From Clostridiales bacterium (GTDB taxonomy: Bacteria; Bacillota; Clostridia; Christensenellales; Aristaeellaceae), in assembly GCA_015056245.1 (NCBI GenBank), contig SVGQ01000007.1:1-53233 (forward strand): a stretch of 53,233 bases of DNA, in the 5' to 3' direction. Both the position numbers and the translations under genes were made by a program. The stretch's first letter is position 1. Every line of letters starts with the position of its first letter. Under the pieces are notes generated by a model. That model saw only the letters and a list, made by a program, of their open reading frames with translations, ran no database searches and was not told the origin of the DNA. Shown here one piece after another: positions 13,501 to 51,625 of the stretch.

Positions 13501-13590
13501 GTTTGAATGTGGGGTGCAGGGGGAACCCCCCCCGCGCCACAGCGCAATAACAGCAAGCACAGCCAGCACCAAAGGTGCAAAATGTACGGC

Positions 13591-13887
13591 TTTCATCGAA
13601 AAACCCCTGGAGGTATCGGAGGGCCGCAGCCCTCTGATTGCTAAACCGAAACCAGCGACATGTGTTGCGGCCCAAACCCAACCTTCGGTTTGTTTTGGGC
13701 TTCGGCACTGCGGGAGCGCTTCGCGCTGTCCTCGCGCCTCGGTTCGCTTCGCTCACCCTTCCGGCGGTTTCGGAACCCTTGCGCAGCAAGGGGCTCCTGT
13801 TTGCCGCCCGGGGAGCCGTAGGCTCCTAGGCAAACGGTGCAAAACTCGTCAAAAAAGCCGCCGCAGGCGTGTTTTTTGACGACCTGA
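13591..13887 (+). repeat. Structured intergenic element, copy A1 (expanded)
   Basis: Same family as the copies at 45474 and 51386: CGAAAAACCC, the GGAGGGCcgcaGCCCTC hairpin, CCGAAACCAGCGACATG, GGTTTCGGAACCCTTGC, the GTTTGCC...GGCAAAC hairpin, and the CGTCAAAAAAGCC...TTTTTTGACG end. This copy carries about 100 bp extra in the centre (about 13662-13760), and its left end is diverged. Confidence 0.8.
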
Positions 13888-13912
13888 GGGATGCGCCTTC
13901 AAGGCGCAGCTC
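13888..13912 (+). repeat. First copy of the pepT terminator hairpin
   Basis: GGGATGCGCCTTCAAGGCGC type hairpin lying between element copies A1 and A2. It is a diverged direct copy of the functional terminator at 14193-14217 and lacks the T-run. Confidence 0.7.
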
Positions 13913-14192
13913 AGACTGTCGAAAAACCCATACTTCTGTTCAAAAGTCGCACATCTTGCACCTACGGTGCTCGCTGTGCTTGCTGAAAAGCGCTGCGGCG
14001 CAGGGTTTGTGGGCTCTGTTCCGCAACCTCAATCATCGTGTAGCCTACTACCGTAACCTACACTCGTTTCGGTTGACGACTGCGGGTCGTTTTGCGCTTC
14101 GCGCAAGTGCCCACTGGGCACACACTTCCCTCCGTCTCCACACCCGGCAGGAAACTGAGTTTCCTGCACCTTCCCCTTTTTTGACAACCTGA
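13913..14192 (+). repeat. Structured intergenic element, copy A2 (same ends, different middle)
   Basis: Begins AGACTGTCGAAAAACCC and ends TTTTTTGACAACCTGA, the same termini as copies B and C, but the 280-bp interior is mostly unrelated apart from the inverted repeat shared with the left of A1. It is flanked on each side by a GGGATGCG hairpin. Confidence 0.7.
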
Positions 14193-14223
14193 GGGATGCG
14201 TCACCAAGGCGCATCCCTTTTTC
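14193..14223 (+). terminator. Intrinsic terminator, displaced end of the pepT transcript
   Basis: GGGATGCG pairs with CGCATCCC and is followed by TTTTTC. It is the first good terminator downstream of pepT and is duplicated at 13888. Confidence 0.75.
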
Positions 14224-44654: not shown

Positions 44655-45236
44655 ATGAACCACTTTTTCGCCTATCTGGACCGCCTGAAACTGATCCGCC
44701 GGTGGGGCCTGATGCGCAACATCGAGCAGGAAAACGATATGGAACACAGCATGCAGACTGCCATGATCGCCCACGGGCTGGCGGTGCTGGGCAACCGCCG
44801 CTACAACCGCCATGTGAATCCGGAAACCGTGGTCACTCTTGCCCTGTATCACGATGCCAGCGAAGCCCTCACCGGGGATCTGCCAACTCCCGTCAAATAT
44901 AGAAACCCGGAGATGCAGACCGCCTACCATGACATCGAAAACCGCGCACGGCAGCGTCTGCTGGGCATGCTGCCCGATGATCTGCAAGCTGACTTTGCCC
45001 CGTACATCCAGCCGGATGAGGCCAGTGAATGCTGGCAGCTGGTGAAGGCAGCCGACCGCATCAGCGCATACCTGAAATGCCTGACCGAGGAAAAGCTGGG
45101 CAATGGTGAGTTTGCCAAGGCCAAGGAAACCATTCTGGAAAGTCTGACCAGCAGTTCCCTGCCGGAAGTGAAGGATTTTCTGGAGTCCTTTGTACCCAGC
45201 TATACCCTGACCCCGGATGAGCTGAGCCGGGGATAA
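44655..45236 (+). CDS. yfbR: 5'-deoxynucleotidase, YfbR-like HD hydrolase
   Basis: 193-residue HD-domain phosphohydrolase that dephosphorylates deoxyribonucleoside 5'-monophosphates. The metal ligands are in ENDMEHSMQTAMIAHGLA and LYHDASEALTGDLPTPVKY, with the late Asp in KAADRISAYLKCLTEE. All match YfbR closely. CGGAGGTCGTATC precedes the ATG. It is convergent with galK; between them lies one of the structured elements. Confidence 0.93.
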   Translation: MNHFFAYLDRLKLIRRWGLMRNIEQENDMEHSMQTAMIAHGLAVLGNRRYNRHVNPETVVTLALYHDASEALTGDLPTPVKYRNPEMQTAYHDIENRARQRLLGMLPDDLQADFAPYIQPDEASECWQLVKAADRISAYLKCLTEEKLGNGEFAKAKETILESLTSSSLPEVKDFLESFVPSYTLTPDELSRG

Positions 45237-45440: not shown

Positions 45441-45473
45441 ACCTCCGGAAGATCATCGATCATTCCGGAGGTT
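45441..45473. repeat. First copy of the yfbR/galK terminator hairpin
   Basis: An 11-bp stem, AACCTCCGGAA with TTCCGGAGGTT, immediately left of structured element B. The 33 bases are identical to 45680-45712. The 45237-45439 stretch before it shows nothing else recognisable. Confidence 0.9.
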
Positions 45474-45679
45474 AGACTGTCGAAAAACCCAAGGAGGTAT
45501 TGGAGGGCCGCAGCCCTCCAATTGCCAAACCGAAACCAGCGACATGCGCGGTGGTTTCGGAACCCTTGCGTAGCAAGGGATTCCTAACGCCGTTTGCCGC
45601 CCGGGGAGCCGTAGGCTCCTAGGCAAACGGTGCAAAACTCGTCAAAAAAGCCGCCGCAGGCGTGTTTTTTGACGACCTG
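45474..45679 (+). repeat. Structured intergenic element, copy B
   Basis: 206 bp, starting AGACTGTCGAAAAAC and ending GTTTTTTGACGACCTG. Hairpins in order: 45499-45522 (ATTGGAGGGC/GCCCTCCAAT), 45530-45560 (CCGAAACC/GGTTTCGG), 45559-45584 (CCCTTGC/GCAAGGG), 45590-45630 (CCGTTTGCC/GGCAAACGG) and 45640-45674 (CGTCAAAAAAGCC, matching TTTTTTGACG). The last has an A-run on one side and a T-run on the other, like a two-way terminator. It encodes no protein. Confidence 0.9.
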
Positions 45680-45712
45680 ACCTCCGGAAGATCATCGATC
45701 ATTCCGGAGGTT
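45680..45712. terminator. Second copy of the yfbR/galK bidirectional terminator
   Basis: Identical to 45441-45473. Before the insertion this would have been the single terminator shared by two convergent genes. It now serves as the galK end. Confidence 0.8.
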
Positions 45713-45763: not shown

Positions 45764-47065
45764 TTATCCCAGCTTGATGCAGGCGGGGCCTTCAGGTCGA
45801 ATTGCCAGTACATTGCAGCTGTGCTGACCAAAGACCAGCTCCATCTCCTTGACGAAGCTGTCCAGCATGGCATTGGGCACGAAGTTCAGGGTGGTGCCGG
45901 CAAAGCCGCCGCCGTGGACGCGCCATGCGCCGCTATTCTGCAGCTTGCTCTGGCTCAGCATCAGAGCCAACGCCAGCTCCTGGCGGTCGGAGGTAGCAAA
46001 AATGTTCTGCAGATACTCGAAGCTGCTGCGTCCGCTTTCGATGATCAGGTTCAGGAAAGCGGGCATGTCATCCCGCTGCAGGGCGCATACCAGCTCGGAA
46101 ACGCGACGGTTCTCGGCAAAGTAGTGGGCGGCGCGCATGATGGCACGGTCAGCATTCTGATCCTTCAGCTGCTGTCGCACCCGGGGCAGCTCCCGCATGA
46201 ACTGTTCCGGCAGCACAGAGCGCAAGTCGGGCTGCCCGAAGCACTGGGCCACGGCCTTCATCTCAGCGGGGATGGAGGCATAGGCAGGGGTCAGGTCGTC
46301 GTGGCTGCCGCCGGTGTTGACCACCACCAGCTGATAACCCATCTTGGCGAAATCGTAGGGGATGGCGGTCACCTGAGGGTCGGGGTTCTGGAAGTCGATG
46401 TAGCATAGGCCGCCCACGCTGCTGGCCATCTGATCCATCAGGCCGCTGGGCTTGCCGAAGTACACGTTTTCGGCGTACTGGGAGATGATGGCGCGCTTTT
46501 TGGCATCCAGCTTGTTGCCGGCATACAGCTCGTCAAAGATGGCGCAGATGAGCACCTCAAAGGCGGCGGAACTGCTCAGGCCGCTGCCGGAGCGCACATT
46601 GGAGGTGATAACCGCATCGAAACCGCCGATGGCGAGGCCTTCCCGGTGCATACCGTGGGCTACGCCACGCACCAGAGCGGCGGTGGTGCCTTCCTCCTCC
46701 TTGCGGGGAGCCAGCTGATCCGGCGCGACGGACAGGCTCAGGGCCGGATAGCCCTCGCTGTGGATGTTGACGATGTTGTCATCCCGGCGGGTGACAGCAG
46801 CCAGCGTGTCCAGATTGACGGCGGCAGCCAGCACCTTGCCGCGGTTGTGGTCGGTGTGGTTGCCGGAGATCTCGGTGCGTCCGGGGGCGCTGATCATATA
46901 GATGGGCTGGGCGTTGCCGATCAGATCCTCATGGCGCTTCAACAGCCCGGTGTAACGGGCGCGCTGGTTCACCAGCATGCCTTCCCGGCTGCCGTACAGG
47001 GTCATCAGTCGTTGCATCACATCGGGGCTTTGCAGCTGCCGCTGCATCTTTGCGTACTGATTCAT
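45764..47065 (-). CDS. galK: Galactokinase
   Basis: 433-residue GHMP kinase. APGRTEISGNHTDHNRG is the galactokinase signature, SGSGLSSSAAFEV the phosphate loop, and the C-terminal motif is HGGGFAGTTLNF. FGKPSGLMDQMASSVGG is also characteristic. It phosphorylates galactose to galactose-1-phosphate in the Leloir pathway. The N-terminus is about 50 residues longer than in short galactokinases. It follows a solute-binding protein gene by 41 bp, suggesting co-transcription; galT and galE are not adjacent. Confidence 0.92.
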   Translation of the reverse strand: MNQYAKMQRQLQSPDVMQRLMTLYGSREGMLVNQRARYTGLLKRHEDLIGNAQPIYMISAPGRTEISGNHTDHNRGKVLAAAVNLDTLAAVTRRDDNIVNIHSEGYPALSLSVAPDQLAPRKEEEGTTAALVRGVAHGMHREGLAIGGFDAVITSNVRSGSGLSSSAAFEVLICAIFDELYAGNKLDAKKRAIISQYAENVYFGKPSGLMDQMASSVGGLCYIDFQNPDPQVTAIPYDFAKMGYQLVVVNTGGSHDDLTPAYASIPAEMKAVAQCFGQPDLRSVLPEQFMRELPRVRQQLKDQNADRAIMRAAHYFAENRRVSELVCALQRDDMPAFLNLIIESGRSSFEYLQNIFATSDRQELALALMLSQSKLQNSGAWRVHGGGFAGTTLNFVPNAMLDSFVKEMELVFGQHSCNVLAIRPEGPACIKLG

Positions 47066-51356: not shown

Positions 51357-51385
51357 AACCGTTGTGTTCTGCATGCACAACGGTT
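51357..51385 (+). repeat. First copy of a terminator hairpin next to element C
   Basis: AACCGTTGTG and CACAACGGTT stem, 28 of 29 bases identical with 51593-51621. The T-run is interrupted by the inserted element. Confidence 0.88.
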
Positions 51386-51592
51386 CAGATCGTCAAAAAA
51401 CACGCCTGCGGCGGCTTTTTTGACGAGTTTTGCACCGTTTGCCTAGGAGCCTAGGGCTCCCCGGGCGGCAAACGGCGATAGGAACCCCTTGCTACGCAAG
51501 GGTTCCGAAACCACCGTACACGCCGCTGGTTTCGGATGAACAATCGGAGGGCTGCGGCCCTCCGATACCTCTGAGACTTCTTTGACAGTCTG
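51386..51592 (-). repeat. Structured intergenic element, copy C (reverse orientation)
   Basis: 207 bp, starting CAGATCGTCAAAAAA and ending TTCTTTGACAGTCTG, the reverse complement of the layout in copy B. All five hairpins are present. In the first, the stem reads ATCGGAGGGC/GCCCTCCGAT compared with ATTGG.../...CCAAT in copy B, a paired change. Confidence 0.88.
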
Positions 51593-51625
51593 AACCGTTG
51601 TGTTCTGCATGCGCAACGGTTTTTT
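51593..51625 (+). terminator. Second copy of the terminator hairpin, with T-run
   Basis: AACCGTTGTG with GCAACGGTT followed by five further T. This is probably the original terminator of the 50826 gene. Confidence 0.8.

Follow-up and report, generated by a model that had tools for sequence, protein, structure and literature searches.

The window, a stretch of 53,233 nucleotides from a Clostridiales bacterium, carries a MITE (family A) inserted at a terminator hairpin that now stands on both sides of it; an IS1182-family DDE transposase probably mobilised the element in trans, recognising ends of the form CAGnnnGTCRAAAAA, choosing its target by shape and duplicating the whole hairpin. The MITE belongs to a dispersed repeat family with whole-hairpin direct repeats, and such repeats have boundaries placed symmetrically around the axis of the hairpin. 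Similar ends and the same repeats occur in autonomous elements, and one exact empty site exists for an autonomous relative. Because entry of IS1182-type elements into hairpins and terminators has already been reported, we regard the element as a MITE and not as a new kind of mover. The first-pass annotation had considered a mobile sequence with no transposase of its own unusual; the element indeed encodes none, but the published hairpin habit of IS1182 elements makes it a MITE.

At the yfbR/galK terminator (Table 1), positions 45441–45473 and 45680–45712 are identical over 33 bp (ACCTCCGG...CCGGAGGTT) with 206 bp between them, exactly as first described. Judged by the other copies, the element comprises 207 bp, so the duplicated target is 32 bp; its first base, at 45473, is T here and usually C. 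The left hairpin folded as DNA gave a z-score of −5.1 against shuffled sequences, and the element folded as RNA gave −7.1. Open reading frames lying mostly within the element reach at most 60 aa, and Rfam at gathering thresholds gave no match in the whole window. Plasmids searched with 1.2 kb around the site gave no match, nor did viral contigs searched with two exact MITE patterns.

Table 1 Features at the three element-bearing sites of the window.
Feature	Position	Strand	Details
Long family-A MITE	13596..13886	+	extra internal segment of about 100 bp; left end degenerate, without hairpin
Hairpin between the two elements, first copy	13887..13911		
Long family-B MITE	13912..14191	+	280 bp
Hairpin after family-B MITE, second copy	14192..14218		diverged, 20/23 identical in the aligned part
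yfbR-like gene, upstream	44655..45236	+	193 aa; putative, name from the first-pass annotation
Left copy of the duplicated yfbR/galK terminator hairpin	45441..45472		32 bp, outer bases paired; 33 bp counting the next T
Family-A MITE	45473..45679	+	207 bp; ends TAGACTGTCGAAAAA / CAGGTCGTCAAAAAA (inverted)
Right copy of the yfbR/galK hairpin	45680..45711		same hairpin as left copy
galK-like gene, convergent	45764..47065	-	433 aa; putative, name from the first-pass annotation and, in part, a motif
Left hairpin repeat, second site	51357..51385		29 bp
Second family-A MITE	51386..51592	-	flanked by hairpin repeat
Right hairpin repeat, second site	51593..51621		28/29 identical to left (1 mismatch)

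The same element had been claimed at two other terminators of the window, each with its own hairpins. This was borne out at the second site in Table 1, but not in the cluster at 13.6–14.2 kb, where the family-A copy lacks a left hairpin and a family-B MITE lies between diverged hairpins instead. By eye, the order from 13550 to 14218 is a family-B-like fragment (at about 13550–13593, abutting the next element), the long family-A MITE, a hairpin, the long family-B MITE and a second hairpin; also by eye, this arrangement represents repeated hits on one terminator region. Family A occurs in two lengths that differ by the internal segment of about 100 bp (L091–L094 versus L001).

We investigated further copies in the 3.1-Mb assembly (G000; 189 contigs, 81% complete) of which the window is one contig (C100). 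A BLAST search with the family-A element, in which 40 of 115 candidates were scored, yielded 54 matches, some of which are pieces of a single copy. An end-motif search revealed a second family, B, among the first 100 of at least 100 motif places; its members are mostly 161 bp, with longer forms of 278–306 bp, and have the same CAGnnnGTCRAAAAA ends as family A. Both flanks were readable in 42 copies, 22 from 30 family-A loci and 20 from 20 further stretches (the degenerate left end of L026 was placed by eye). Direct repeats of 15–47 bp (median 29.5), at most 6 bases from the ends, flank 38 of these 42 copies of families A and B. Folding with at least 6 base pairs was observed for 35 of the 38 repeats; of the remaining three, L014 and L075 are diverged hairpins and L016 is a 15-bp palindrome. 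Furthermore, the hairpin edge of 33 of the 38 copies includes a stretch of 12 bases with at least 6 A or at least 6 T, a feature of terminators.

When left flanks were paired with right flanks of other copies, only 2 of 1,722 crossed pairs were positive, compared with 38 of 42 true pairs, which excludes chance as the source of the flanking repeats. The two positive crossed pairs were L008/L012, which have a swapped flank in common, and L027/L023, whose hairpins are nearly identical. The four copies without a flanking repeat are L008 and L012 (the left hairpin of L008 is the right hairpin of L012), L027, and L078, in which the left hairpin is truncated. The hairpins are site-specific, in agreement with the first-pass reading of the differing hairpins as duplicated targets and of the element as a mobile sequence with a preference for terminators, each of which it duplicates in full: most copies do have flanking duplications, and the hairpins lie outside the conserved element.

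Family A has three features of a MITE: it is short and without a transposase gene, its terminal inverted repeats are shared with autonomous elements (the ends of L129 and L060, below, are similar), and its dispersed copies have target duplications. The stem-loop replacement known from IS1272, in which the hairpin is lost without duplication, is not what we see, as the hairpin is present twice.

Family-A matches were found in 12 of the 17 genomes of the genus, G000 included. At the galK locus, an element end lies beside a hairpin in G009 (L098) and in G016 (L103), with a different hairpin in each, and the two are apparently independent insertions. No element was found in the 330 bases examined at this locus in G005, G006 and G008; the outer bases of the G005 galK hairpin resemble those of the G000 hairpin. 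At two further G000 sites, compared with four relatives each, no element was seen in up to 330 bases examined, and in 7 of these 8 relative loci a terminator-like hairpin is visible by eye, single and with another sequence. A strict MITE empty site with identical flanks was found neither at galK (17 genomes) nor at the two further sites (four relatives each), because the intergenic regions and hairpins of the relatives are too diverged. A query built on the L004 site found matches in 6 other genomes, over most of its length in only 3, and no clear empty site. In one relative (L097), two palindromic units GGCTCCCTTGCCAAAGGGAGCT stand in the galK intergenic region, at most 330 bases upstream of the galK-side match.

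IS1634 elements form a family with long target repeats; as a partner they were rejected, with matches in 0 of 10 genomes. The IS1182 model NF033551 matched in 7 of the 17 genomes of the genus, 3 of them above the cut-off. The transposase with matching ends that the first-pass annotation had proposed to look for has counterparts in IS1182-family elements of relatives, but none in G000; because no IS1182 transposase was found in that assembly, we infer the partner from the relatives. In one of them (L060, a stretch contained in record SVGN01000074.1, L159), CAGACTGTCAAAGAA and CAGTCTGTCAAAAAA enclose a broken IS1182 gene, and outside them stand two hairpins that differ from each other. The open piece of this gene matched in 38 of 300 genomes drawn from the bacterial family, and among 30 loci fetched, 8 carry such ends with a hairpin repeat of 21–33 bp immediately beyond them; contig ends truncate many of the other 22. 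At L128, the same site as L060 and not one of the eight, a 40-bp hairpin is repeated around a composite stretch.

The best partner candidate is L129, an intact transposase of 478 aa that is 89% identical to the open piece of L060; the ends there are CAGCCTGTCAAAAAA / CAGCTTGTCAAAGAA, and a 25-bp hairpin is repeated exactly next to them. L129 and L138 scored 415 and 431 bits against NF033551 (cut-off 270), and the candidate partner transposases have the Pfam domains DUF772 and DDE_Tnp_1_6. Over about 40 bp, the right end of the family-A MITE can be aligned with the left end of L129: both contain CAGnnnGTCAAAAAA and, after it, a small GC-rich hairpin that has A and T tracts. The opposite end of MITE-A shows only weak similarity to L129, and MITE-B shares little with it beyond the terminal repeat.

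We then characterized IS1182 loci in named genomes, taking the best 80 of 550 loci (loci, not genomes, as several genomes give 2–3). Thirteen of the 80 have fewer than 120 bases on one side, leaving 67 with both flanks; the species represented include Claveliimonas bilis, Chakrabartyella piscis, Romboutsia timonensis, Saccharibacillus sacchari and Enterococcus avium. Target repeats in the IS1182 family range from 0 to 60 bp, and some members target palindromes. Among these 67 loci, 42 have a repeated hairpin of 19–39 bp, all 42 with at least 6 pairs, and 15 more have a hairpin at each end. Inspected by eye, the 25 loci without a repeat comprise these 15 with two different hairpins (e.g., L165, L166, L172, L219), 5 with one end not identified, 3 at a contig start, 1 cut 4 bases past the element, and L222. 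The last, an element of Butyrivibrio hungatei, has a 6-bp non-hairpin repeat, CAAATT.

Judged by record title, 14 of the 15 loci with differing hairpins come from metagenome assemblies, compared with 15 of the 42 loci that have a repeated hairpin, the other 27 being 26 isolates and 1 single cell (Fisher p = 1.7e-4 when the single cell is left out). This excess makes mis-assembly at repeats the likely cause of the differing hairpins, recombination between copies being the other; L172, from an isolate, is unexplained by metagenome mis-assembly.

Symmetry was measured on 34 repeats that are exact and abut the element ends without slack. Counting inward from both repeat ends, bases 2–8 pair with each other in 97–100% of cases, with the dyad central, whereas the outermost pair, mostly A and T, matches in 76%, the next two positions outside in 68% and 65%, and those beyond in 29–50%. 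A larger list of 99 sites (44 MITE, 55 IS), picked for having a repeat and with less exact boundaries, gave 68–77% for bases 2–8; we distrust two of its rows, L212 (later placed among the 25 without a repeat) and L234 (a 60-bp repeat inside a gene, re-measured as 29 bp). These pairings indicate that, for hairpins of any length, the element is joined to its target at two points placed symmetrically on either side of the hairpin axis.

An exact occupied/empty pair for an autonomous relative is provided by two Streptococcus phages. Javan90 and Javan87 are identical over 480 bp to the left and 731 bp to the right of a 26-bp hairpin, which is present once in Javan90 and twice in Javan87, with a 1,538-bp element between the copies. 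This element encodes an IS1182-type transposase (annotated 'transposase-IS1562'; 46.5% identity to L129). It resembles the MITE-A system in its CAGACTG end, its whole-hairpin repeat and its L129-similar transposase; unlike MITE-A, it is autonomous, and its ends are CAGACTGAAGACAAA rather than CAGACTGTCGAAAAA.

Mobilisation in trans, a cruciform target and the identity of the attacking strand ends are what we infer from these structures. An IS1182 transposase would pick an inverted repeat by its shape, usually a terminator hairpin and most simply in the form of an extruded cruciform; joining would then occur at the two 5′ feet of the cruciform four-way junction, and repair of the two gaps would copy the whole hairpin, giving hairpin–element–hairpin. 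The same element and transposase might instead use a hairpin in single-stranded DNA, at a fork or transcription bubble, with the second strand cut later at the mirror position. Symmetric boundaries need only the hairpin to fold, not both strands folded together, and terminators can be exposed on a single strand; however, known DDE transposases join both ends to duplex DNA in a single step, and the near-complete pairing of bases 2–8 fits one symmetric junction more simply. We therefore consider a single-stranded target unlikely.

Two accounts that dispense with such a transposition step are far less credible. Retroelement-like, target-primed insertion of an RNA copy would fit the long and variable direct repeats, which are usual for that route, and the element would be a highly folded RNA; however, its two ends carry one and the same inverted terminal repeat, in which DDE elements with this target preference also terminate, and this makes an RNA intermediate extremely improbable. 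Similarly, the double hairpins could stem from recombination or assembly at repeats, considering that many contigs end inside copies and that L008/L012 and 15 autonomous loci have differing flanks. Yet recombination does not give 38 copies a matching, site-specific hairpin at either end, and the 26 isolate-genome IS loci and Javan87/Javan90 show the same structure, so that we give an origin without insertion almost no weight.

Other bacterial MITEs are short and non-coding, have inverted ends, are moved in trans and reach many copies (PMC10969869). Those such as RUP, Correia and MITEAba12 have short target repeats, in contrast to the whole hairpin of variable length duplicated by family A. Insertion of IS1182-type elements into hairpins and terminators is already known, as the accessible parts of papers on ISCbo5 (PMC3098183) and IS1272/TnSha1 (PMC4923244, PMC5678879) describe. 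For ISCbo5/ISBma2 of Clostridium, all insertion sites but one were hairpin-forming inverted repeats at gene ends, read as stop signals; the available text states a 'surrounding hairpin', but contains no measurement of a duplication and no mention of MITEs (PMC3098183). A counter-example within the family is ISCaa15, with a 4-bp repeat according to the excerpt available (PMC3196728).

The staphylococcal IS1272/TnSha1 is like the partner element in its IS1182-family transposase and inverted-repeat target, which in the accessible text shows no sequence preference and in several cases is a terminator (PMC5678879, PMC4923244). Unlike MITE-A, which keeps and duplicates its hairpin, IS1272 is there described as replacing or partly deleting it, without duplication (PMC5678879). 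The cruciform model of Wan et al. 2017, as given in the same text, proposes pathway a (joining at the 3′ feet, hairpin lost) for IS1272, and pathway b, whole-hairpin duplication, as a hypothetical branch for which that text gives no observed case (PMC5678879). The present copies look like this pathway b branch, common in nature and used by MITEs.

Among the hits listed from the open-access literature, no paper by its title or abstract measures whole-hairpin duplication by IS1182 elements or describes IS1182 MITEs; as far as those hits tell, MITEs of this kind, whole-hairpin duplication over about 100 sites and the symmetry rule are new. About 100 natural examples are thereby available for a proposed branch of a structure-guided transposition model, together with a measurable rule: the duplicated target has the length of the hairpin and is centred on its axis. 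The copies also suggest how a mini-element reaches dozens of copies with little damage, as it enters mostly terminators and leaves one on both sides. Furthermore, they make testable the idea of a transposase that reads cruciforms in living cells, and we suggest such insertions as reporters of hairpin extrusion.

We lean, with some reserve, towards a broader reading in which a wide IS1182 clade, mostly in Firmicutes and at least one Rhizobium, targets by DNA shape alone, joining at the cruciform 5′ feet and duplicating the terminator, and in which MITEs exploit this habit to reach dozens of copies. If true, such insertion would be 'harmless by construction', and nature would offer an extensive data set on the hypothetical pathway b. 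No repeat was seen at L243. For distant IS1182-type elements on six proteobacterial plasmids, no ends were found at L246 and L250, the ends identified at L247 and L249 have no hairpin repeat, any repeat at L248 is at most about 5 bp by eye, and L245 has a hairpin repeat of 24 bp.
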